Positions 36,308-49,925 of a stretch of DNA of 64,000 nucleotides are shown here, one piece after another. The DNA is from Prosthecomicrobium sp. N25 (GTDB lineage: Bacteria > Pseudomonadota > Alphaproteobacteria > Rhizobiales > Ancalomicrobiaceae). A model generated the notes under the pieces. It was not told the origin of the DNA. It saw only the letters and a list, made by a program, of their open reading frames with translations, and did no database searches. The position numbers and the translations under genes were made by a program. Positions within the stretch are counted from its first letter, which is position 1; each line of letters starts with the position of its first letter. The DNA lies in the NCBI RefSeq assembly GCF_037203705.1, contig NZ_JBBCAT010000006.1, positions 186,001 to 250,000 of the forward strand. The letters run 5' to 3'.

Positions 36308-36763
36308 ATGGCACGCCTGACCGTGAACGGCGTCGCGCGCGACGTCGACGTCGAACCCGATACCCCTCTGCTCTGGGTGATCCGCGAGCAGCTCGGCCTG
36401 ACCGGTACCAAATACGGCTGCGGCGTCGCCGCCTGCGGCGCCTGCACCGTGATGGTCGACGGTGAGGCCCTGCGGTCCTGTTCCCTGCCCGTCTCGGCCT
36501 TCAACGAAAAGCAGAAGATCGTCACCATCGAGGCGCTATCTCCCGACGGCTCGCACCCGCTCCAGAAGGCCTGGGCGGCCCTCGACGTGCCCCAGTGCGG
36601 CTACTGCCAGTCCGGCCAGCTCATGGCCGCCGCCGCGCTCCTGGCGAAGACGCCGAAACCCAGCGATGCCGAAATCGAGGCGGCGATGACCAACATCTGC
36701 CGCTGCGGCACCTACAACCGCATCCGCGACGGCATCAAGCAGGCCGCCGGCATCGCCATCTGA
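36308..36763 (+). CDS. (2Fe-2S)-binding subunit of xanthine dehydrogenase family enzyme (IorA-like)
   Basis: 151-residue iron-sulfur subunit. The plant-type cluster uses the CGVAACGAC motif plus a later Cys in LRSCSLP; the second cluster uses CGYCQSG and CRCGTY. Two-cluster small subunits without a FAD subunit are typical of the isoquinoline oxidoreductase (IorAB)/aldehyde dehydrogenase branch. ATG 36308 is chosen because AGGAGG lies 9 bases upstream; the earlier in-frame ATG 36299 touches that site. Operon with the molybdopterin subunit (50-base gap). Confidence 0.93.
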
Positions 36764-36813
36764 CCCGCCGATACCGCCGACCGCGATCGATTCGATCCTC
36801 GAGGAGGATTCCC

Positions 36814-38985
36814 ATGGGCATGATCAAGCTTTCCCGCCGCGAGGTCCTGGCCGGCGCCGCTGCTGCGGCCGGCGGACTGACGCTCGGCTTCCACGTCCCC
36901 GATGCCGCCGCCGAGGGCACCCACGACGCCCTCAAGGAGATCAACGCCTGGGTCGTCGTGAAGCCCGACGACACCGTCGTGATCCGCGTCGCCCGCGTCG
37001 AGATGGGCCAGGGCACGCTGACCGGCCTCGCCCAGCTCGTCGCCGAGGAGCTCGAGTGCGACTGGTCGAAGGTCACCACCGAGTACCCGACCCCCGGCCA
37101 GAACGTCGCCCGCAAGCGCGTCTGGGGCAACTTCGGCACCGCCGGCAGCCGGGGCATCCGCGACAGCCACGACTACGTCCGCAAGGGCGGCGCCGCGGCC
37201 CGCATCATGCTCGTCAACGCCGCCGCCGCCGAATGGGGCGTACCGGCCGGCGCGTGCAAGGTGTCCAAGGGCGTCATCAGCCACGAGGCCTCCGGCCGCT
37301 CGACCACCTACGGCAAGGTGGCGTCCGCCGCCGCGAAGCTCGAGGTCCCGCAGGACCCGCCGCTCAAGGACCCGAAGACCTGGACGATCGCCGGCCAGCC
37401 CGTGAAGCGGCTCGACACCAAGGGCAAGCTCGACGGCAGCCAGGTCTACGGCATCGACCTGAAGCTCCCGGGCATGCTCAACGCCGCCATTCGCGACTGC
37501 CCCGTCCCGGGCGGCAAGCTGAAGAGCTTCGACGCTGCCAAGGTGCAGTCCATGCCGGGCGTGAAGAAGGTGATGGCCCTCGACGGCACCGGCGTCGCCG
37601 TCGTCGCCGACACCTGGTGGCGCGCCAAGACCGCCCTCGACGCCCTGCCGGTCGAGTGGGACGAGGGCCCCAATGCCGCCCACGACACCAAAACCTTCAC
37701 GGAGGTGCTGAAGGCCGGCCTCGATGCCCCCGATGCCTTCGTGGGCAACCAGAAAGGCGACGTGAAGGCGGCCGTCTCCGGCGCCGCCAAGGTCGTGGAG
37801 GCCGTCTACGCCTTCCCGCACCAGCACCACGCCACCATGGAGCCGATGAACGCCACCGCGCTCTACACGCCCGACCGGGTCGAGGTCTGGTGCCCGACCC
37901 AGAACGCCGAGGCCGCGCTGGCCACCGCGGTCGCCGCCTCCGGCCTGCCGATCGAGAAGTGCGACGTCTACCGCATCAATCTCGGCGGCGGCTTCGGCCG
38001 GCGGGCGACCAGCCACGACTACGTCCGCCAGGCCGTGCTGATCGCCAAGGAACTGCCGGGCACGCCCGTCAAGCTTCTGTGGTCGCGCGAGGAGGACATG
38101 CTGCACGGCCGCTACCATCCGAGCACCCAGTGCAAGATGGTCGGCGCCCTCGACGCCAACGGCGACCTGGTCGGCCTGCACATGCGCATCTCCGGCCAGT
38201 CGATCCTGGCCGGCGTCAACCCGGCCGGCCTCCAGCAGGGCCGCGACCCGGCCACCTTCCAGGGCCTCAACCCGAGCGGCACCGAAGGCGTCTTCGGCTA
38301 CGCGGTGCCCAATCTCCTGATCGACCACGCCATGCGCAACCCGCCGACGCCTCCGGGCTTCTGGCGCGGCGTCAACAACAACCAGAACGCCTTCTACCTG
38401 GAGAGCTTCATCGACGAACTCGCGCACGCGGCCGGCAAGGACCCGCTCGAGTTCCGCCGCAAGCTCCTCAAGGACAGCCCGCGCCACCTCGCGGTCCTGA
38501 ACGCCGTCGCCGAGCGCGCCGGCTGGGGCACCCCGGCCCCGAAGGGCGTCTACCGCGGCCTCGCCCAGCACATGGGCTACGGCAGCTACGTGGCCGCCTG
38601 CGCGGAGGTCTCGGTGACCGACGGCAAGCTGAAGATCCACCGCATCGTCGCGGCCACGGACTGCGGCCACGCGGTGAACCCGCAGCAGATCGCCGCCCAG
38701 GTCGAGGGCTCCTTCGCGTTCGGCCTCTCCGCCGCCCTGCATGGCCAGATCACGGTCGCCAAGGGCCGGGTGGAGCAGGAGAACTTCGACACCTACGAGG
38801 TGCTCCGCATGGCCGAAATGCCGAAGGTGGAAACCATCGTCATGCCCTCCGGCGGCTTCTGGGGCGGTGTCGGCGAGCCGACCATCTTCGTCGCCGCCCC
38901 GGCGGTCATCAACGCCATCTTCGCGGCCACCGGCAAGCGCTACCGCGCGACCCCGATCGGCACGACGAGGATCGGCCAGGCCTGA
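36814..38985 (+). CDS. Molybdopterin-binding subunit of xanthine dehydrogenase family enzyme (IorB-like), TAT-exported
   Basis: 723-residue catalytic subunit. The N terminus has a twin-arginine signal (LSRREVLAGAAAAAGGLTLG), so the enzyme with its small subunit is sent folded to the periplasm. Cofactor motifs: GGGFGRR, the PPGFWRGVNNNQNAF block and the catalytic Glu in GVGEPTIF. No FAD subunit, so electrons must go to a cytochrome or similar acceptor; the next gene, 4 bases on, encodes a c-type cytochrome (SoxX). Substrate unknown: aldehyde, N-heterocycle or an organosulfur compound are open options. Confidence 0.9.
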   Translation: MGMIKLSRREVLAGAAAAAGGLTLGFHVPDAAAEGTHDALKEINAWVVVKPDDTVVIRVARVEMGQGTLTGLAQLVAEELECDWSKVTTEYPTPGQNVARKRVWGNFGTAGSRGIRDSHDYVRKGGAAARIMLVNAAAAEWGVPAGACKVSKGVISHEASGRSTTYGKVASAAAKLEVPQDPPLKDPKTWTIAGQPVKRLDTKGKLDGSQVYGIDLKLPGMLNAAIRDCPVPGGKLKSFDAAKVQSMPGVKKVMALDGTGVAVVADTWWRAKTALDALPVEWDEGPNAAHDTKTFTEVLKAGLDAPDAFVGNQKGDVKAAVSGAAKVVEAVYAFPHQHHATMEPMNATALYTPDRVEVWCPTQNAEAALATAVAASGLPIEKCDVYRINLGGGFGRRATSHDYVRQAVLIAKELPGTPVKLLWSREEDMLHGRYHPSTQCKMVGALDANGDLVGLHMRISGQSILAGVNPAGLQQGRDPATFQGLNPSGTEGVFGYAVPNLLIDHAMRNPPTPPGFWRGVNNNQNAFYLESFIDELAHAAGKDPLEFRRKLLKDSPRHLAVLNAVAERAGWGTPAPKGVYRGLAQHMGYGSYVAACAEVSVTDGKLKIHRIVAATDCGHAVNPQQIAAQVEGSFAFGLSAALHGQITVAKGRVEQENFDTYEVLRMAEMPKVETIVMPSGGFWGGVGEPTIFVAAPAVINAIFAATGKRYRATPIGTTRIGQA

Positions 38986-38989
38986 TGCC

Positions 38990-39445
38990 ATGGGCCGGGC
39001 CGTCCGGCTCCTCGCGGTCGCGCTCGCCGCGGCTGCGGGCGGAGCATCGCCCGTCCGCGCGGGCGACCGCATCCCCGATTACGTCGTGGTCGGCGACGGG
39101 ATCCCGGCCCCGCTCGAAGGGCGGGCCGGCGACCCTCTCCGGGGCCGCGCCATCGTGGCCGACCGCACGGCCGGGCTCTGCCTGATGTGCCACGCAGCCC
39201 CGATCCCGGAGGTGCGCCAGCAGGGCGACCTGGCGCCGGACCTCGCCGGCGCCGGCTCCCGCTGGACGGCGGCCCAGCTCCGCCTGCGCCTCGTCGACGC
39301 GCGCCGCCTGAACCCGGCCTCGATCATGCCGCCCACTCTGAAGCTCGACGGCCTCGTCCGCGTCCAGGCCCGGTTCCGGGACCGGACCATCCTGGACCCG
39401 CAGGCGATCGAGGACGTCGTCGCCTACCTGGAGACGCTCCGATGA
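38990..39445 (+). CDS. soxX: Sulfur oxidation c-type cytochrome SoxX
   Basis: 151-residue secreted monoheme cytochrome. A signal peptide ends near VRA (residue 24); heme is bound by CLMCH at 64-68 and the likely axial Met is M113 in ASIMPPT. In the Sox system SoxAX joins thiosulfate oxidatively to the Cys of SoxY. The start ATG is 4 bases after the molybdoenzyme stop; overlaps soxY by 4 bases. The full soxXYZA series supports the name over a generic cytochrome c. Confidence 0.85.
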   Translation: MGRAVRLLAVALAAAAGGASPVRAGDRIPDYVVVGDGIPAPLEGRAGDPLRGRAIVADRTAGLCLMCHAAPIPEVRQQGDLAPDLAGAGSRWTAAQLRLRLVDARRLNPASIMPPTLKLDGLVRVQARFRDRTILDPQAIEDVVAYLETLR

Positions 39446-39906
39446 CCGACGCGACGCGCCTGTCCCCGACCCGCCGCAGCCTCGTGCTCCTCGGCGCCGG
39501 CGGCCTCGCCTGGCTGACGGTCCGCCCCGCCCTGGCGACCCCCGACACCATGGCGGCCGGCATCGCCGACTTCACCCGCGGCGTCGCACCCATCCCCGGC
39601 CGCGTCGCCCTCGAGATCCCGCCGCTGGTCGAGAACGGCAACTCCGTGCCGCTCACCATCCGGGTCGACAGCCCGATGACCGAGGCCGACCACGTCGCCA
39701 CCATCGCGGTCTTCAACGAGAAGAACCCGCAGCCCTTCGTGGCCCGGTTCCACCTCGGCCCCTGGTCGGGCCGGGCCGAAGTCGGCACGCGCATCCGGCT
39801 CGGCGACAGCCAGAAGATCGTCGCGGTCGCCGCCCTCAGCGACGGCACCTTCTGGTCCGGCGCCGCCGACCTCGTCGTCACCCTCCCGGCCTGCGTGGAG
39901 AACTGA
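39442..39906 (+). CDS. soxY: Thiosulfate oxidation carrier protein SoxY, atypical C terminus
   Basis: 154-residue sulfur-carrier subunit. It has a twin-arginine-type signal (TRRSLVLLGAGGLAWL) and an Ig-like fold with segments such as ENGNSVPLTIRVDSPM and FNEKNPQPFVARFHLG that are typical of SoxY. The carrier Cys is C151, the only Cys, but the tail is ACVEN rather than the canonical GGCGG. Whether this tail still acts as the swinging arm is unclear. Overlaps soxX (ATGA); 4 bases before soxZ. Confidence 0.88.
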   Translation: MTDATRLSPTRRSLVLLGAGGLAWLTVRPALATPDTMAAGIADFTRGVAPIPGRVALEIPPLVENGNSVPLTIRVDSPMTEADHVATIAVFNEKNPQPFVARFHLGPWSGRAEVGTRIRLGDSQKIVAVAALSDGTFWSGAADLVVTLPACVEN

Positions 39907-39910
39907 GGCC

Positions 39911-40237
39911 ATGCCCCTCGACCGCGCCCTCGTCAACATGCCGCCGAACGCCGCCCGCGGCGAGGTCGTCACCGTCAAGACCCTGATCCGCCACCCGATG
40001 GAATCGGGCTTCCGGCCGGGTCCGGACGGCAAGCTCCTGCCGCGCGACATCATCGCCTCCCTGGTCGCCCGCTACGCCGGCCGCGAGGTCTTCCGCATGG
40101 AGCTCTTCCCCGCCATCGCCGCGAACCCCCTGGTCGCCTTCCCGATCCTCGCGACCGAGACGGGCGAGGTCGAGATTCGCTGGACCGACGAGAAGGGCGA
40201 GTTCCGCGTCGAGCGGAAGACCCTGACGGTGACATGA
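39911..40237 (+). CDS. soxZ: Thiosulfate oxidation carrier complex protein SoxZ
   Basis: 108-residue partner of SoxY with an Ig-like beta-sandwich and no signal peptide, as expected because it is exported bound to TAT-dependent SoxY. Recognisable: KTLIRHPMESGF near residue 25-35, the PRDIIASL segment, and the end GEFRVERKTLTVT. Overlaps soxA by 4 bases. Confidence 0.9.
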   Translation: MPLDRALVNMPPNAARGEVVTVKTLIRHPMESGFRPGPDGKLLPRDIIASLVARYAGREVFRMELFPAIAANPLVAFPILATETGEVEIRWTDEKGEFRVERKTLTVT

Positions 40238-41010
40238 AGGCGGTCGCGGCCGTCCTGGTTCTCGGGCTCGCGGCCTCGGGTCCGGTCCTTGCGGACGGCA
40301 TCGCGCCCGGGGAGCGCCGCTCCGGCGCGGCCTTCATGTCGGAGGAGACCCGCGCCATGGAGGCTGACGACAGCCTCAACCCCGGCATGCTCTGGGTCGA
40401 GGAGGGCGAGGCCCTGTGGCGGACGCCGGCCGGCGCCTCGGGCCGGTCCTGCGCCGACTGCCACGGCGACGCCGCCCGTTCCATGGCCGGCGTGGCGGCG
40501 CGCCACCCGGTCTACGACGCCGCGACGGGAGCGCCGCGAACCCTCGCCGGCAGCATCGCGCAATGCCGGTCGGACCGGCAGGGCGCCCCCCGTCCCGCGC
40601 CCGAGAGCCCCGAGATGCTGGCGCTCTCCGCCTACGTGGCCCGCCAGTCGCGCGGGATGTCGATCACCGCCGGCGAGGACCCGCGCCTCGCCCCGTCCGT
40701 CGAGGCGGGCCGGCGGCTGTTCACGACCAGGATGGGCCAGCTCGCGCTCTCCTGCGCCGACTGCCACGACGACAACTGGGGCCGCCGCCTCGGCGGCGCC
40801 CCGATCCCGCAGGCCCACCCGACCGCCTACCCGCTCTACCGCCTGGAATGGCAGAGCCTCGGCTCCCTGCAACGCAGGCTTCGGAACTGCCTCGCCGGCA
40901 TGCGCGCCGAGCCCTGGCCGGAAGGATCGGACGAAGCCGCCGCGCTCGAGCTCTTCTTGATGGCGCGGGCCCGCGGGATGCCCCTGGAGGCCCCGGGCGT
41001 CCGCCCCTGA
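40234..41010 (+). CDS. soxA: Sulfur oxidation c-type cytochrome SoxA, diheme
   Basis: 258-residue secreted cytochrome with a signal peptide ending near VLA (residue 20). Two heme motifs CADCH (73-77 and 174-178). C111 (IAQCRSD) and C219 (RLRNCLAG) match the conserved Cys heme ligands, the second being the cysteine persulfide of the active site; the C-terminal MARARGMPLEAPGVRP is family-typical. All residues needed for SoxAX chemistry appear kept. Last gene of the operon; no soxB, soxC or soxD is in the window. Confidence 0.92.
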   Translation: MKAVAAVLVLGLAASGPVLADGIAPGERRSGAAFMSEETRAMEADDSLNPGMLWVEEGEALWRTPAGASGRSCADCHGDAARSMAGVAARHPVYDAATGAPRTLAGSIAQCRSDRQGAPRPAPESPEMLALSAYVARQSRGMSITAGEDPRLAPSVEAGRRLFTTRMGQLALSCADCHDDNWGRRLGGAPIPQAHPTAYPLYRLEWQSLGSLQRRLRNCLAGMRAEPWPEGSDEAAALELFLMARARGMPLEAPGVRP

Positions 41011-41013
41011 CGG

Positions 41014-43899
41014 TCAGATCGCGATCCGCCCGAACGTGTCGACCGCGTCGATCCCGGACTGTCCGTCCAGGAAGGCCGGCACGTCCTCCGGTTCGAGCGG
41101 CGGACTGACCAGATAGCCCTGGATCTGGTCGCAGCCGATCCCTTCCAGGAAGTCCCGCTGCCACCGCGTGGAGACCCGTTCGGCCGTCGTCTCGATGCCC
41201 AGGCGGTGTGCGAGGTCGACGAGCCCGATGACGATCGCCTGGTCCTCGGGCGCCTGCTCGATCCGGTCGACGAACGAACCGTCGATCTTGATGCGGTCGA
41301 TCGGGAACTGCTTGAGGTGCATGAGCGACGCGAATCCGGTGCCGAAGTCGTCGAACGCGATCTCGACGCCGAGGGCGTGCAGCCGCGCGAGCGCCGGGCC
41401 GATGCGGTCCACGCCGCGCCCGAGCAGCAGTTGCTCCTTGATCTCGATGGCGAGGTCCGTGGCCGGCACGCCGGCCTCCGCCAGCGCGCTCGACAGGTCC
41501 TCCACCAGCGTGTCGGTCCGGAAATCGGCCGCCGTCACGTTGAAGGCGATCCGCCCGAAGTGGATCCCTTCGGCCCGCCACCGGCGCGCCTGCCCGATCG
41601 CCAGGCGCATCACCATGCGGCCGAGCGCGCCCGAGATGGCGGGGTCCGAGAAGCCTTCGATGAACTGGCCGGGCGTCAGGAGCCCGAATTCCTCGTGGTT
41701 CCACCGCAGCAGCGCCTCGAGGCCCACGACCTCGCCGCTGCGGCCGGCCACGATCGGCTGGTAGACGAGCCGCAGGGCCCCCGTGTCGAGCGCCCGCTCC
41801 AGGTCGGTCCGCAGCCGGGTTCGCCGGTCGATCTCGACGCGCATCTCGGCCCGGAAGAAGTCGTAGCGGTTGCGCCCGGCCGCCTTGGCACGATAGAGGG
41901 CCAGGTCGGCATTCTTCATGAGCTCCGCCGGGCTCTTCGAATCCGACGGATAGACCGCCACCCCGATGCTGGTCGTGAAGCGGCGCAGCTCGGCGCCGAG
42001 GCGCGCCGGCTCCTTCATGGCCTCCACGATGGCGTCGAGCGGCCGAATGATGTCCCGCGCATCCTCCAGGTCCGGGAAGATGGCGCCGAACTCGTCGCCG
42101 CCGAGCCGGGCGAGCGTGTCAGTGCTGCGGATCAGCGGCATGACTCGACGGGCGACCGTCTTCAGAAGTTCGTCGCCCGCGTCGTGCCCGAGGGAGTCGT
42201 TGATCTCCTTGAAGGCATCGAGGTCGAACATGGCCACCGCCACGCTCCTGCCGGTCCGGTTGCCCCGGTCGATCGCGTCGTGGAGCCGCATCTGGAACTG
42301 CACCCGGTTGGGCAGTCCGGTGAGGGCGTCGTGGTTGGCGAGCTGCCAGAGCCTCTGCTCGTAGCTGCGGCGGGCCGAGATGTCCTGCAGGACCAGGATC
42401 AGCGACGAGCGCCCGTCAGCCTCCTGGACCACGCGCCCGGACGCGATCGCCGGGACCGGCTGGCCGTCCCCGCGCTTGAGGTCGAGTTCCACCGGCCCGA
42501 AGCCGTCGCCGCCGGTGGGCTGGGCCGGAAACTCCGTCCCGGCGGGCAGGAGGTCGGCGAGCGTCATCCCCTCGAACGCGGCCGGCGTCAGCTTCAGCAT
42601 GTCGGCGAGGGCGCGGCTCTGCATGAGGATGCGCCCGGAGGCCAGGTCCACGAGCGCCAGCCCCACGGGCGACAGATCGAAGATGGATCGGAAGCGGGCT
42701 TCGCTCGCCCTCAGCGCCGTTTCCGACCGCCGCCGGTCCGTGCTGTCCACCACCGTCGTGACGAAGCCGCCGTCGGGCAGGGGCATCCCGCGCGTCTCGA
42801 GCACCTGCCCCCCGGGCCGGGTGCGCTCGAAGCAGTGCGGCTCGAACCGGCGCGCCAAGGCAAGCCGGACGCCCACCTGCTCGTCGGGGTCGCCTGGGCC
42901 GTACTCTCCCCGCCCGGCATTGTAGCGCAGGAGCGTCTCCAGGCTGGGGGCGGGGCCGGCGAACAGGGACTCGGGGAGATCGAGCACCTCCCGGTAGCTC
43001 CGGTTCCACTTCCTCACCACCAGATCCCGGTCCACGAGGGCGACCCCGCCCGGGAAGTTGTCGAGGATGGCCTGCAGGAGCCCGGAGTTGTCGGCCAGGG
43101 CCTTCTCGGCCATCTTTTGCGACGTGATGTCGGTGAAGGACGTCAGCGCCAGGGCCGGCGGGTCGCCCGCGTCCTCGAACACCGGCTCCGAACTGACCAG
43201 GATCCACCGCAGATCGCCGGTGGGCAGATGGACGCCCATTACCACGTCGTGCTGGGCCGCGCCGGTGCGCAACGCCAGCATGGCCGGGTATTCGTCGCCG
43301 GGAAAGTCGGATCCGTCCTCGCGGACCGCGCGCCAGCGCGGGTCCACTGAGCTCCGCCCCGTGATCTCGGCTTCCGTCAGGCCCAGGATCGCCATCGCGC
43401 CGGCGTTGGCCATGAGGATCCGGCCGGTGCGGTCCTGCAGCACGAGCCCCGCGGAGAGCCCCCGCAGCATCACCGCGCTCACCGCCTCGCTGCGCCGGGC
43501 CTCCGATTCGGCATGCTTCTGAGGCGTGATCTCGGTCCGGATCGCCGTGTATCCGGCGATCTCGTCCGTCTCGTCCCGGAACGGCGCGATCACGGTCGCG
43601 ACCCAGTAGAGCCGCCCGTCCTTCGCCCGGTTGCAGATTTCTCCCCGCCAGACGTCGCCGCCTCGGATGGTCCGGTACAGATCCTCGTAGAAGCGGCCGT
43701 CGTGGACGCCCGACTTGAGGATCCGGTGGTCCGAACCGATCAGTTCCTCGCGGCTGTATCCGCTGATCTCGCAGAAGCGATCGTTCGCGTAGGTGATCCG
43801 CCCCTGCGCGTCCGTCTCCGCCACGATAGAGGCGAGATCGAGCGCCCGGACGAGGCGCTCGGCTCTGGGCGTGACCGATCGTTCCGCATCCGAGGTCAT
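41014..43899 (-). CDS. PAS-GGDEF-EAL cyclic di-GMP signalling protein
   Basis: 961-residue soluble protein. Four PAS domains are visible at about 15-130, 140-262, 265-390 and 395-510 (first with ITYANDRFCEISGYS). GGDEF is intact at 600-604, preceded by an RSTD inhibitory-site motif (591-594). EAL is present at 728-730 with NVTAADF, DDFGTGFASL and KIDGSF, but the usual AEGVE stretch reads AERVS. It may therefore synthesise c-di-GMP, with weaker or regulated hydrolysis. It lies 28 bases downstream of a globin-coupled chemoreceptor gene on the same strand and converges on soxA with a 3-base gap. Confidence 0.93.
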   Translation of the reverse strand: MTSDAERSVTPRAERLVRALDLASIVAETDAQGRITYANDRFCEISGYSREELIGSDHRILKSGVHDGRFYEDLYRTIRGGDVWRGEICNRAKDGRLYWVATVIAPFRDETDEIAGYTAIRTEITPQKHAESEARRSEAVSAVMLRGLSAGLVLQDRTGRILMANAGAMAILGLTEAEITGRSSVDPRWRAVREDGSDFPGDEYPAMLALRTGAAQHDVVMGVHLPTGDLRWILVSSEPVFEDAGDPPALALTSFTDITSQKMAEKALADNSGLLQAILDNFPGGVALVDRDLVVRKWNRSYREVLDLPESLFAGPAPSLETLLRYNAGRGEYGPGDPDEQVGVRLALARRFEPHCFERTRPGGQVLETRGMPLPDGGFVTTVVDSTDRRRSETALRASEARFRSIFDLSPVGLALVDLASGRILMQSRALADMLKLTPAAFEGMTLADLLPAGTEFPAQPTGGDGFGPVELDLKRGDGQPVPAIASGRVVQEADGRSSLILVLQDISARRSYEQRLWQLANHDALTGLPNRVQFQMRLHDAIDRGNRTGRSVAVAMFDLDAFKEINDSLGHDAGDELLKTVARRVMPLIRSTDTLARLGGDEFGAIFPDLEDARDIIRPLDAIVEAMKEPARLGAELRRFTTSIGVAVYPSDSKSPAELMKNADLALYRAKAAGRNRYDFFRAEMRVEIDRRTRLRTDLERALDTGALRLVYQPIVAGRSGEVVGLEALLRWNHEEFGLLTPGQFIEGFSDPAISGALGRMVMRLAIGQARRWRAEGIHFGRIAFNVTAADFRTDTLVEDLSSALAEAGVPATDLAIEIKEQLLLGRGVDRIGPALARLHALGVEIAFDDFGTGFASLMHLKQFPIDRIKIDGSFVDRIEQAPEDQAIVIGLVDLAHRLGIETTAERVSTRWQRDFLEGIGCDQIQGYLVSPPLEPEDVPAFLDGQSGIDAVDTFGRIAI

Positions 43900-43927: not shown

Positions 43928-46075
43928 TCACCTCAACGCCATTCCGAGCCTGAGCCCGCCCCAATGGCGACCGCGGACCGTGATCGGCGTCGAGAGATCC
44001 TTCATCAGCACCGTCCGGCCGCCACCCAGGTCGCGCGGATAGGTCTGGCAAAGGAACGGCTTCGTGTTCCGGGCCGCGGTCAGGCCGGTGCGGTCGTCGA
44101 AGACGCGGCGGTTTCGGCAGTTGGCGTTGTTCCAGACCGGGTCCGCCCCCTGCGGCTGCGAATACTTCCTGTTGTGGCAAGGCAGGTAGCCGTTGCGGTC
44201 GGCCGCGACGCAGAAGATGACGTCCTTGTCGATGTCGAGCGCCGCTTCCAGGTGCCGGGGCAGGACGGTCTCCAGAAGATCGAGCGACCGCGACCGGTGC
44301 TGTTGCGGATTGGTCTGGGGAATCGGGGTCAATTCGATGTCGAAGAGCTGGTCTTCGGTGATACGCCCCTGCTCGAGCGCGGACTCCAGGTCGTTCTGGA
44401 TCTGGTCGCGCAAGGACGCGAGCCGCTCCCGCACACGCTGGTCCGCCCTCTCGGCGTCCTCGATCCGGGACGTGAGCCGCTCCTGGGCGGTGCCGGCGAG
44501 CCCGGAGAACTGGATGCGCAGGCCGAGCGACTGCTCGCCGACCACCTTGGCCGGGACGCGTCCGACGCCCTCGATGTCGATCTCGACGTCCGCCGCAGCG
44601 TCTACGGCGTCGCCCGACGGGGCGTCGACCAGACAGCCGCCGAGCGAGATCTCCACCATGCGGGTCTCCAGCCGCCGCGTCCCCTGGACCAGCGAACAGG
44701 GCCAGCGCACCGGATAGCGGGCGTGTCGCCGGCTGTCCGTGTTGGCGAAGCTGCGGACCGTGACGATGAGGCGGCTCTCCAGATGCTGGAAGATCCCGGC
44801 GAGTTCCGAGGACGTCCCGACCAGCACGCCCTTGGCGCCTTCCGCCGACGCGATGGCGTCCTGGATCACCCCGACGCTCTTCTCGAGCTGCCCGGCCCCC
44901 TGCGCGGCCCGGTGGGCGCTGTCCGTGACCTCCTCCAGCGCGCGCATCTGGCCGCTGGCATTCTCCGACACGCTGCGCGCGACCTGGTCGATACCCTTCA
45001 CGGACTGGCCGATCTGCGCCATCGCGCCCACCGCCACGCGGGTCTGCTCCGCCATGGCGTTGATCTGCGAGGCGATCTCCTGGGTGGCGGCGCCGGTGCG
45101 CTGGGAGAGCTGCTTCACCTCCTGGGCCACGATGGCGAAGCCGCGGCCGAGTTCGCCGGCCCGTGCCGCCTCGATGGTCGCGTTGAGGGCGAGGAGATTG
45201 GTCTGCTGCGCGATTTCGTTGATCAGTTCGACGATCTTGCGCACCTCGTCGGAGGCCTGGCTGAGGCGGTTCATCACGTCGCTGGCCGCCTCCGCCTGCT
45301 GGCGGGCGTCGCCCACCAGGCGCGACGTCTCCTCGGCCTGCCGGCCGACCTCGCGGCTCGAGGCCGCCAGTTCCTCCACCGCCGAGGCGACCGACGCCAT
45401 GCTGGTGCTGGCCGAGCGCGAGCCCCGGTCGACCGTGTCGGCCCCGCCGACCACGCCCTCGATCGCCTGCGCCATGTCGGCCACGACCCGGGTCAGGGTC
45501 TCGGCCTGCTTCTGCATGGCCGAACTGGCGTGCCGCATCTCCTCCTCGATGGACTCCGCCATCTGGTCCAGTTCCTGGCGGCGCGCCTCCGATTCGGTCA
45601 TGTCCACGTAGGCGTCGAGGGCGGCCGCCATATCGAGCAGGATCGCGCGCACGATGCCGCTCGCCAGGACCGCCGGCCGGCTTCCCTCGCCGAGCGCCGC
45701 GTGGAGCATGTGCTCCAGCAGGTAGGAGTAGCTCGCCACGTAGTAGCGGGGCAGAAGGCCGGTCTTGACATGGGCGACGCCGATTCGCCGGGAGCGGTCG
45801 AGCAGGGCCTCGTCGACGGGCGAGCCCAGCAGCTTCGTCCAGTGGCCCTCCTGGGCCTTCTTCAGATGTGCAACCCCGGGGCTCTTGGCGAGGAAGTCCG
45901 CCATGGCCGGGCTTCTCTGCAGGACCGCGTAGAAGCCGTCCAGGATCGGGCCTACGCGAGGCGCGAGCGTCGACCGGAATGTGGCGTGGACAGCCTCCGC
46001 CTGCTCGGGCGCAAGCCCCGTCAGGTGCTCCATGATGTCGGCAGCACCGGTATGGCTCTTCTTTCTGGCGAACAT
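43928..46075 (-). CDS. Globin-coupled methyl-accepting chemotaxis protein with PilZ domain
   Basis: 715-residue soluble receptor without membrane spans. Residues 10-160 form a HemAT-type sensor globin with proximal His H102 ([12 protein letters not shown]); 190-430 is the MCP signalling hairpin with tip [20 protein letters not shown]; 448-530 is a PilZ-like c-di-GMP-binding domain (RRHAR followed by EISLGG); 555-715 is an extra C-terminal domain with conserved-looking NRKYSQP, FDDRTGL and RGRHWGGLR segments, of a PAS/Cache-like kind seen behind other alphaproteobacterial receptors. ATG 46075 is preferred over 46102, which touches its upstream site. Probably senses oxygen; upstream of the GGDEF-EAL gene. 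Confidence 0.9.
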
Positions 46076-46438
46076 CGTCTGAAAACCCCCGTCCGCCCCC
46101 ATTCCTGGTCACCATGCGTAAAATCGGCGTTAAGACGCGATGGAGGCCATGAAGCAATACTGGTCTGGAGATCGCCGACACTCGGCCTTGAAAGAAATGA
46201 CGTAAGGGAATCTGCTGTAGAGTTCCAGAATATTGTTCAACCTGAACACCCACTGTCAATAATACGGAGTACAATCCAGCATTTCTTGGAAGGCGCGCGA
46301 TATCCCGGCTCACGCGAAAAATCTTGCATCGACGGTTCTCCTCCCGCCCGACCTGTGTCATGACGTCGCCCTCGTCCTGCGCTATCGCAAAGCGGGACGC
46401 GCCCGGCCGTCGTGCCGGAGAACGAGGAGAGAGGTGCC
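46076..46438. other. Divergent intergenic region
   Basis: 363 bases between the chemoreceptor and pyruvate kinase genes, clearly richer in A/T than the genes around it (for example 46200-46280). It should hold both promoters. GAGGAGAGAGGTG directly before 46439 is the pyk ribosome binding site. I see no gene, convincing -35/-10 pair or terminator. Confidence 0.5.
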
Positions 46439-47939: not shown

Positions 47940-48130
47940 CAAAAGATCTATCAAGGGGCGAGTTACTCTGGAATACCATTGTCAGTCGAGACCTGACGAC
48001 TTGAAGCATATAAACGCTTTTGACTATGGTCATGCCGACAACACATGAGCAATGGCTCATGGACGGGAACCAGAGTACGGGCTTGCCGCTTGATGTGAGG
48101 ATCCACGCTGCGGCGGTTCGGGAGATCGGC

Positions 48131-48970
48131 ATGGCCGCGGTCGCAGACATCAGCCCCGAACCTCGAGATCGCCCCACAACAGCAGCCGCGCTCGATCCCC
48201 GGGTCCTGACGGTCCTGATCGGCGCCGCCTTCCTGAATGCCGAGTTCGGCAACATCTACGATTCCGTCGCCCGCTGGGGCTGGGCAACCGCGCTCTTCGC
48301 CGCCTTCGAGATCAGCGGCATCGTCTGGATCGCGGTGGCGATCCTGCTCGGCCGGCTGGCGCGGCTGCCGGCCCTGCCTCTGTCGGCGGGGGACGTCGTC
48401 GTGTTCGCGGCCGTGGCGGCCCTCGTGCTCTACCCCGTCCCGCAGGCGGCCTGGGCCGGGCTGACGCTGGCCGGTGTCTGGCTCTTGGCGCGGGCCGACA
48501 GGGCGCCTGGTCTCCGCCGGACCGCCTCGCTGGTCCTGGCCCTCGCCTTCGCAGGATTGTGGGGCCGCCTGATCTTCCGCCTGTTCCTGGATCCGATCCT
48601 GCTCGTCGACACTACCCTGGTCGCCTGGGCGGCCGGTCTGCCGTTCAACGGCAACGTCATCGAGGCCGCCGACGGCAAGAGCGTTCTGAAGGTCCTGGAG
48701 GGCTGCTCCTCCTTCGCCAACTTGTCGCTCGCGGTTCTCGGCTGGGTCGCGGCCCGAACCTGGTTCGGCGCGAGCGGCTGGCGGCGCACGCTCCTGTTCC
48801 TCCCGATTTCGATGGCCGCCGTGATGGCGATCAACACGACGCGGATCGCCCTGATCGCACTCCACCCTGATCAGTATGGCCTGCTTCACGGGCCGGTCGG
48901 GACCAGCGTCGCGGGCCTGGCCACGACGATCGCCATCTTCGCGATCTCCATCGCGGGGAACCGCCGGTGA
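48131..48970 (+). CDS. Exosortase/archaeosortase family protein
   Basis: 279-residue integral membrane transpeptidase-like protein with about eight hydrophobic spans. The family triad is visible: Cys C192 in EGCSSFANL, Arg R238 in NTTRIALIAL and His H253 in LLHGPVG, each on the expected side of spans. Exosortases cleave and probably re-attach proteins carrying a C-terminal PEP-CTERM-like tail. Start ATG 48131 has GGGAG 6 bases upstream; earlier in-frame starts (48020 TTG, 48026 ATG) lack a site and give a polar 35-residue extension. Overlaps the next gene by 4 bases (GTGA). Subclass not assigned. Confidence 0.88.
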   Translation: MAAVADISPEPRDRPTTAAALDPRVLTVLIGAAFLNAEFGNIYDSVARWGWATALFAAFEISGIVWIAVAILLGRLARLPALPLSAGDVVVFAAVAALVLYPVPQAAWAGLTLAGVWLLARADRAPGLRRTASLVLALAFAGLWGRLIFRLFLDPILLVDTTLVAWAAGLPFNGNVIEAADGKSVLKVLEGCSSFANLSLAVLGWVAARTWFGASGWRRTLLFLPISMAAVMAINTTRIALIALHPDQYGLLHGPVGTSVAGLATTIAIFAISIAGNRR

Positions 48971-49446
48971 AGCGAGGTTTGGTCGGACTGGTCCTGGTGC
49001 TCCTGTTCTCGGCGGCATCACTGGCCCTGAAGTTCAACGCCGAGGCGAACCAGCCCCCCTCACCGGGTCCGCGCCTGCTGGCTGCGCTCGGGCGCAGCCT
49101 GGAGAGCGCCGGCTACCGCGCCCGCGTCGATCTGCGCGGCGGCCTCGTCGAGGGTGAGTCCCCGGATTGCACCGTGGCCTTCGGGCTGAGCCGCCCGGAG
49201 GGCGGGGACGACGGCTACCTGCTCGAGCGCTATGCGGGCTCCCACCGGATCGCCTACCTGTGGAAGGGGCGGTTCACGGAGAAGCGCCCGGGCATCCGGG
49301 CCCAAATCGAAAGCTACGCCTATCGGCTCATCGCCCCCCTGCGGCTCGGCATCGACCCCAAACCGATCTACCTGGTGTCGATGTCGTCGGGGTGCCGGAG
49401 CGAACTGATCGCGGGTCTGGCTGCGCCGAACGGGGAGGTGTTCTAA
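48967..49446 (+). CDS. Exosortase-associated accessory protein (hypothetical)
   Basis: 159-residue protein anchored or secreted by one N-terminal hydrophobic segment (residues 4-21). The rest is a soluble, probably periplasmic domain with Cys in PDCTVAF and again in SSGCRSELI, which could pair. GTG start overlaps the exosortase stop, so the two are translationally coupled. EpsI-like proteins occupy this position in other exosortase loci, but I do not see clear EpsI motifs; the role is inferred from position only. Confidence 0.65.
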   Translation: MKRGLVGLVLVLLFSAASLALKFNAEANQPPSPGPRLLAALGRSLESAGYRARVDLRGGLVEGESPDCTVAFGLSRPEGGDDGYLLERYAGSHRIAYLWKGRFTEKRPGIRAQIESYAYRLIAPLRLGIDPKPIYLVSMSSGCRSELIAGLAAPNGEVF

Positions 49447-49568
49447 GGTCGCCACCTATATCCGAGAGTATATGTGACCACACCGCAGATTAAATCCATT
49501 CGATAACGAATCCGCCTTTCCGCAGCCGCTCTCCCTGCGGCAAACATGCCACATTTAACCTTGGCATA

Positions 49569-49618
49569 CCGCAGCGCTGCAGATAGGGTTGACATGATCG
49601 GCAAATGCGAACTAAGGT
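49569..49618 (+). promoter_or_regulatory. Promoter of the sorting-substrate gene with upstream palindrome
   Basis: TTGACA at 49589-49594 and TAAGGT at 49613-49618, 18 bases apart, form a plausible sigma-70 promoter 26 bases before the ATG region. Directly upstream is CCGCAGCGCTGCAG (49569-49582), a near-palindrome that ends 6 bases before TTGACA, as at the exosortase gene. Confidence 0.6.
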
Positions 49619-49643
49619 TTAAACATATTAGGAGGATTGAACG

Positions 49644-49871
49644 ATGATCATGCGTGCTGTAGCCGTTGCCGCCTTCCTTGCCGCCAGCTCGACGCTGGCG
49701 ATGGCCGCTGTCGAGGGGCCGAAGGGTGGTGGGACCGGTGGTGGGGTGACCCCGAATATCGGTGGTGGCGAAGGCCCCAAGAATGTCCCCGGCCCGATCG
49801 CCGGCGCTGGCCTCCCGCTCCTGCTCGCCGCTGCCGGCTATGCCGCTTGGCGCCGTCGCAAGGCCTCCTGA
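49644..49871 (+). CDS. Small secreted protein with C-terminal exosortase sorting tail
   Basis: 75-residue protein. A Sec signal peptide ends at AMA (residue 21). The mature region to residue 47 is a Gly-rich linker (GGGTGGGVTPNIGGG). The tail has the tripartite sorting layout: VPGP at 48-51, a hydrophobic span about 54-69, and the basic end RRRK (70-73). AGGAGG lies 8 bases before the ATG. Own promoter and terminator, separate from the exosortase pair by 197 bases. Likely the dedicated substrate of the adjacent exosortase; once processed, only about 26-30 residues would remain outside. Confidence 0.8.
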   Translation: MIMRAVAVAAFLAASSTLAMAAVEGPKGGGTGGGVTPNIGGGEGPKNVPGPIAGAGLPLLLAAAGYAAWRRRKAS

Positions 49872-49894
49872 GCCGAGACGAACTTCGAAATTCG

Positions 49895-49925
49895 AACGCG
49901 CCCGCTTGCGGGCGCGTTTTCGTTT
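49895..49925 (+). terminator. Rho-independent terminator of the sorting-substrate gene
   Basis: Eleven-bp stem AACGCGCCCGC / GCGGGCGCGTT closing on TT, followed by TTCGTTT, 24 bases after the stop. From here to the GntR stop at 50226 (300 bases) I see no gene. Confidence 0.85.

Follow-up and report, generated by a model that had tools for sequence, protein, structure and literature searches.

The window, a 64-kb stretch of DNA, carries an exosortase gene, an accessory gene coupled to it and a gene for a small protein with a C-terminal sorting tail, all on the forward strand. The features of this module are as follows.

48131-48970, + strand: exosortase, 279 aa, about 8 predicted helices, with C192, N235xxR238 and H253xxxG257
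48967-49446, + strand: accessory protein, 159 aa, with an N-terminal span, an alpha/beta domain, Cys68 and Cys143
49630-49635, + strand: AGGAGG, which probably serves as ribosome-binding site for the small tailed gene, read from the sequence 8 nt before the ATG
49644-49871, + strand: 75-aa tailed protein, with a signal peptide at about residues 1-21, a Gly-rich linker (22-47), the VPGPIAGAGLP motif plus hydrophobic stretch (48-69) and an RRRK end
49894-49919, + strand: terminator-like hairpin of 11 pairs (8 G-C), followed by a T-rich stretch

GGGAG precedes the ATG of the exosortase in the sequence, and a longer reading frame from a TTG start at 48020 is a possible alternative. The GTG start of the accessory gene lies inside the exosortase stop codon, giving an overlap of 4 nt, and the small gene begins 197 nt after the accessory gene, with no sigma-70 promoter detected 5' of it by a promoter scan. 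As a count, the hairpin behind the small gene is weak evidence, since two such sites were found in the stretch against 1.3 expected in shuffled sequence. The codon bias of the small ORF is also weak (GC by codon position 0.72/0.66/0.72, compared with 0.68/0.53/0.89 for the exosortase).

The 75-aa protein has every part of a tripartite C-terminal sorting signal (motif, hydrophobic span and basic end) together with an N-terminal signal peptide, the latter assigned from its hydrophobicity and by eye. A plausible cleavage site, AMA, is separated from VPGP by 26 residues, in line with the 26-30 exposed residues estimated in the initial annotation of this DNA. That annotation had also set the tail apart from the standard PEP type, and the PEP-CTERM model TIGR02595 indeed gave 11.5 bits on it, below the cut-off of 16. 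The LPXTG anchor model TIGR01167 reached 16.8 bits, above its cut-off of 15.9, over profile positions 14-33 of 34, in a protein that has no LPxTG motif. A tail detector, defined as a signal peptide plus P-x-P, a hydrophobic stretch and a basic end, found no second protein of this kind in the 64 kb, as had been claimed before. The earlier description of the three genes likewise holds, with C192, R238 and H253 intact in the exosortase, a translationally coupled single-span accessory protein and a 75-residue protein composed of a signal peptide, a Gly-rich linker and a VPGP/hydrophobic/RRRK tail.

Among the 11 neighbouring genes scanned, which include a pyruvate kinase, a GntR/FCD regulator and a PEP carboxylase-like gene, no exopolysaccharide genes were found. 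Elsewhere in the window, genes for SoxY, SoxZ and a SoxA/TsdA cytochrome c lie in a row (39442-41010), preceded by a pair encoding 2Fe-2S and molybdopterin-binding oxidoreductase proteins (36308-38985), and a PAS-GGDEF-EAL protein (41014-43899) adjoins a single protein that combines protoglobin, MCP signalling and PilZ domains (43928-46102).

The exosortase and its accessory protein

The window protein barely reaches the exosortase/archaeosortase superfamily model TIGR04178, with 23.2 bits against a cut-off of 23, and at E ≤ 0.01 this model matched 12 of 18 aligned exosortases, the window's included. In all 18, C192, N235, R238, H253 and G257 are invariant. A structure model built from only three sequences (mean pLDDT 72.8) has about eight long helices; a Foldseek search with this fold returned unrelated membrane proteins (best E 0.12), and PDB sequence profiles gave no exosortase match at E ≤ 1. 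PF09721 (Exosortase_EpsH) matched neither the window protein nor any other in the genome, and the Cys site reads C-S-S, not the Cys-Xaa-Gly of the EpsH type. Assignment to a named Xrt subfamily was rejected, as none reaches its cut-off in NCBIfam: XrtX gave 18.9 bits of 170 needed, XrtF 18.8 of 90 and archaeosortase B 11.1 of 150, with the weak similarity located around the catalytic residues. Some of the other 17 exosortases weakly matched XrtD, XrtR, CrtC, ArtD or ArtE, judged by E-value and not against cut-offs. By these comparisons the window exosortase is a predicted member of a clade that has no name in the family library searched.

An accessory ORF lies directly 3' of the exosortase at 28 of the 28 loci read. 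A start with exactly 4 nt of overlap with the exosortase stop is available at 17 of them, and ten further loci, with the starts listed, overlap by 8-158 nt; at L119 the start is unsure, and the part read, which lacks the span, lies 25 nt downstream of the exosortase. The second cysteine is invariant in all 18 aligned accessory proteins, and a first alignment of eight showed K22, the first cysteine, P108 and the second cysteine to be invariant throughout. The protein resembles no family closely: the window accessory matched no Pfam or NCBIfam family at E ≤ 10, none of the 18 matched an NCBIfam family at E ≤ 1, and Pfam gave seven families, each weakly matching a single one of the 18 (best E 0.017). 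An identity as EpsI (TIGR02914) was considered and dropped after zero model matches for the 18 proteins, a result to be read with the possibility that TIGR02914 lies outside the NCBIfam release searched. The structure model (three sequences, mean pLDDT 71.8) consists of a long N-terminal helix and an alpha/beta domain. Foldseek against the PDB returned nothing useful with it (best E 0.087), and the nine matches of PDB sequence profiles, headed by a response regulator at E 0.012, were judged to be chance.

Shared tails and a second module in the genome

A search for the tail through the whole genome (G000; 5.95 Mb, 17 contigs) yielded six proteins with the same tail, of 75, 200, 60, 62, 74 and 193 aa (sizes from the best start), four of them within 60-75 aa. 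All six tails share VPGP, A11, G12, L15 and P16. The tail of the 75-aa protein is therefore not a chance feature, as five other proteins of the genome carry it. The other tails from this search, and a second exosortase, are located as follows.

C1:2410294-2410395: tail of the 200-aa protein
C1:27541-27642: tail of the 60-aa protein
C2:616975-617073: tail of the 62-aa protein
C1:268260-268364: tail of the 74-aa protein
C1:995979-996080: tail of the 193-aa protein
C1:1007302-1008141: second exosortase, 43% identical to the window exosortase, on another contig and with its own accessory

The paralogous exosortase scores 19.3 bits with TIGR04178, under the cut-off of 23. Its cluster encodes glycosyltransferases, an NAD-dependent epimerase, a UDP-glucose/GDP-mannose dehydrogenase, a flippase-type protein and a polysaccharide pyruvyltransferase, and the 193-aa tailed protein is encoded about 11 kb away. 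Immediately before the second exosortase in this exopolysaccharide cluster lies a gene for an 832-aa protein without a Pfam match (L014 11669-14167). A third, weak TIGR04178 match (E 0.42) falls in a 376-aa frame at C2:134808-135041.

Standard PEP-CTERM proteins, which the initial annotation had named as counter-evidence if many occurred in the genome, were not found, TIGR02595 giving no match at E ≤ 0.05. At E ≤ 10 there were five matches, three of which were inspected. The single one above the cut-off (E 0.08) was rejected as a PEP-CTERM protein, being antisense to a GroEL-like frame that we take, by eye, to be GroEL. The same annotation had regarded the module as a self-contained system of one enzyme and one substrate; this does not survive at the scale of the genome, which has five more proteins with the tail, six in all, and a second exosortase-accessory pair.

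Co-occurrence of tail and exosortase in related genomes

We surveyed 397 genomes of the order and 385 of the class with a tail profile built from G000 alone and an exosortase profile built from G000, G014 and G003, so that G000 (for the exosortase also G014 and G003) matches by construction. In the order survey, the exosortase was present in 16 genomes (E ≤ 1e-5) and the tail in 23 (E ≤ 0.01). The strong sets are identical, tail matches at E ≤ 1e-5 and exosortase matches at E ≤ 1e-49 both comprising G000, G003, G014, G140, G165 and G316. With G000 omitted, the probability that five of five other tail genomes fall by chance among the 15 other exosortase genomes of 396 is 4e-8, a figure that assumes independent genomes, which is not quite true. 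The other 17 tail genomes have one match each (E 4.9e-5 to 0.009), and G039 is the sole exosortase genome among them. In the class survey, the exosortase occurred in ten genomes and the tail, at E ≤ 0.001, in five (G000, G490, G749, G719 and G731). Both are present in G490 and G749; G719 and G731 have the tail and zero exosortase matches in this survey, and the G731 frame contains an internal stop. In G719 (L127 85-3974), three APAP-type tailed proteins stand in a row, the exosortase profile being blank there at E ≤ 1e-5.

All 25 exosortase genomes were rescanned for the tail at E ≤ 0.05, with at most 150 candidates scored per genome. This gave eight tails in G003, seven in G165, six each in G000 and G014, two in G749 and one each in G140, G316 and G490. 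Six more genomes have one weak tail each (E 0.003-0.035), which in G360 and G298 adjoins the exosortase, and 11 of the 25 had none at this threshold. Standard PEP-CTERM proteins were found at E ≤ 0.05 in just one of the 25, G605, whose 14 matches indicate that the PEP model does detect such proteins when they are present. In a tree of 28 exosortases, a single branch (SH-aLRT 95) sets 10 of the 11 enzymes from tail-bearing genomes apart as one clade, and none of 500 shuffles was as low. The topology was obtained by a quick method without bootstrap and has long branches in other parts. The remaining enzyme, L123, which is the second exosortase of G749, groups elsewhere in the tree and has a small neighbour whose tail is different. 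All seven other modules scanned for context lie near glycosyltransferase, flippase, UDP-glucose dehydrogenase, pyruvyltransferase or Wzz-like genes.

Across genomes the tail reads (V/A)PGPxxGxGLP, followed by a hydrophobic stretch and a basic end. In an alignment of 23 of the 24 matches from six genomes (G003 C17 was left out), P-G-P, G12 and P16 are invariant in all 23 tails, and A11, G14 and L15 are nearly so. The tail is carried mostly by secreted proteins of roughly 150-240 aa in G003, G014 and G165 and by one protein of about 256 aa in G316; in the frames read, two of the 23 (G014 C54:9184 and G003 C68) lack a clear start with a signal peptide. The tail that scores best outside G000 (G014 C54:9178-9279) lies in a frame of 77 residues that has no credible start; the gene may be broken or misassembled. 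No published paper with the motif strings turned up in a search that covered part of the literature and few subscription papers.

Small tailed proteins beside the exosortase

The arrangement of three genes side by side, as in the window, recurs in part of the relatives: a small tailed protein adjoins the exosortase at 12 of the 28 loci read and is absent at the other 16. The initial annotation had named absence of the tail next to homologous exosortases as a refuting result, and on this point the outcome is mixed. The detector found ten of the 12, to which L123 (57 aa) and L145 (cut at a contig end) were added. Within 1.5 kb of the 28 exosortases (81.5 kb) it reported 14 ORFs at these ten loci, compared with 2 ORFs in 332.5 kb elsewhere, one of which is the 193-aa tailed protein; Markov-shuffled versions of the near regions gave a mean of 0.3 ORFs and never more than 2 over 30 runs. 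This enrichment is partly post hoc, because the detector was written after the first examples were known. On the exosortase tree, the adjacency trait requires eight changes.

The locus-adjacent proteins measure 54-126 aa. By eye, their middle parts are of low complexity and have nothing in common besides signal and tail, being Gly-rich in the window and at L144, Lys/Arg/Pro-rich at L071, L117 and L119, and Gly/Asn/His- or His/Pro-rich at L118 and L148. The two extremes measured have 4 and 64 residues between a plausible cleavage site and the motif. The shorter belongs to one of four tandem tailed proteins of 54-62 aa in G269 (L151 5345-6128), which follow the accessory gene directly and have almost no ectodomain. 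Nothing on small exosortase-adjacent substrates was found in the literature searched, and the part of PMC9850573 available to us says nothing about protein size.

Discussion

We propose that the window module is one of two exosortase modules in a small multi-substrate sorting system, whose substrates carry a (V/A)PGPxxGxGLP-hydrophobic-basic tail instead of a PEP tail and would be processed as outlined below, and we hold this reading to be likely. Because five other proteins of the genome share the tail, the module belongs to a small sorting system of a known kind and is not a one-enzyme, one-substrate device. The small products may be genuine cargo, but they may also act as regulators or as primers.

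In a first alternative, the small adjacent proteins would not be cargo but would load or regulate the exosortase-accessory pair, as its subunits or as pseudo-substrates. Their short, low-complexity middles, as small as 4 residues, would suit such a role, and so would the four tandem proteins of G269. However, the same kind of tail is found on the larger secreted proteins of G003, G014 and G165, and 16 of the 28 loci manage without an adjacent small protein, so we regard this possibility as unlikely. We are more sceptical still of a strict division of labour, in which the window exosortase would serve the adjacent 75-aa protein only and its paralog the other tails. Adjacency at 12 loci speaks for it, the two exosortases of G000 are merely 43% identical and could divide the work, and G140 and G490 have no tail match besides that of the adjacent protein. 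Dedicated enzyme-substrate pairs may thus exist in this clade; G000 itself has more tails. Against such a division in G000, all six tails share the same motif residues, nothing seen in the tail sets the adjacent protein apart, and three other tiny proteins (60, 62 and 74 aa) have the same build and are encoded far from both modules. A further reading, in which the small ORF would be spurious or a leftover and the module an orphan copy in decay, away from its exopolysaccharide cluster, is very improbable: the lack of exopolysaccharide genes among the 11 neighbours, the absence of exosortase and tail from G012 and G013 (both other genomes of the genus searched) and the weak codon bias would fit, but the frames are open, the triad is intact, AGGAGG and the hairpin are in place and the conserved tail is full-length.

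For the multi-substrate system, we propose the following hypothetical sequence of events, in which (i) the signal peptide would export the tailed proteins and the tail would hold them in the inner membrane; (ii) Cys192 of the exosortase, helped by Arg238 and His253, would cut on the periplasmic side, at the PGP motif or close to it; (iii) the cut would free the short membrane tail, and the new C-terminus would pass to an acceptor, such as a lipid amine or an exopolysaccharide precursor; and (iv) the accessory protein, whose single span would place its two-cysteine alpha/beta domain in the periplasm, would work with the exosortase, probably by presenting the acceptor or the substrate. Cutting at the tail motif and transfer of the C-terminus are expected from the models put forward for EpsH (PMC1569441) and the archaeosortase (PMC7157517), as far as the portions of these papers at hand describe them. 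The 75-aa protein would then be a locus-linked small substrate, and its processed product a Gly-rich peptide of about 26 residues.

A bolder idea is that the exosortase-accessory pair, in this clade and its neighbours, has a second product besides sorted surface proteins, with locus-linked micro-substrates of little or no ectodomain being cut to short lipid- or glycan-joined peptides that act as exopolysaccharide primers, caps or anchors. We consider this a long shot; if true, the exosortase would be a maker of peptide-conjugate building blocks besides a protein sorter. The system, in which genomes have one to eight tails and some tailed proteins of 54-100 residues adjoin the enzyme gene, offers a minimal case for determining cut site and acceptor by mass spectrometry, and in the literature examined, partly as excerpts, we saw no bacterial exosortase whose product had been defined chemically. 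It also provides an exosortase clade, unnamed in the family library searched, with a matching tail (PGPxxGxGLP) and a constant partner, and annotators could name small genes that now go without a label if the pattern holds more widely.

Among known systems, rhombosortase/GlyGly-CTERM (PMC3237569, 2011) relies on an unrelated enzyme. According to the sections of that paper available to us, enzyme and target are direct neighbours in most genomes that have just one target, a pattern also seen in G140 and G490, and lie far apart in the others, in contrast to G000 with six tails and one of them adjacent. For archaeosortase A (PMC7157517, 2020), the accessible text speculates on a Cys-linked intermediate followed by transfer to a lipid amine, which resembles the route proposed here; that enzyme is archaeal, and a lipid transfer in the present system would follow by analogy only. 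PEP-CTERM/EpsH (PMC1569441, 2006), in the parts of the publication consulted, shares the tripartite C-terminal tail with several substrates per enzyme, an enzyme with Cys, NxxR and HxxxG (in EpsH an 8-helix protein, with six invariant residues in three motifs and a proposed Cys mechanism), the link to exopolysaccharide genes and a gene, EpsI, right after EpsH. In contrast to PEP-CTERM/EpsH, the motif here is PGPxxGxGLP, no protein of the genome matches PF09721, C-S-S replaces the Cys-Xaa-Gly given for EpsH in that source, the accessory matches no model, and genomes have 1-8 tails, several of them on tiny proteins; PEP-CTERM genomes often have twenty or more substrates, as stated in the portion of PMC3237569 at hand. 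The system described here is of the exosortase/PEP-CTERM kind, as an unnamed variant with its own clade, its own tail and a constant partner.
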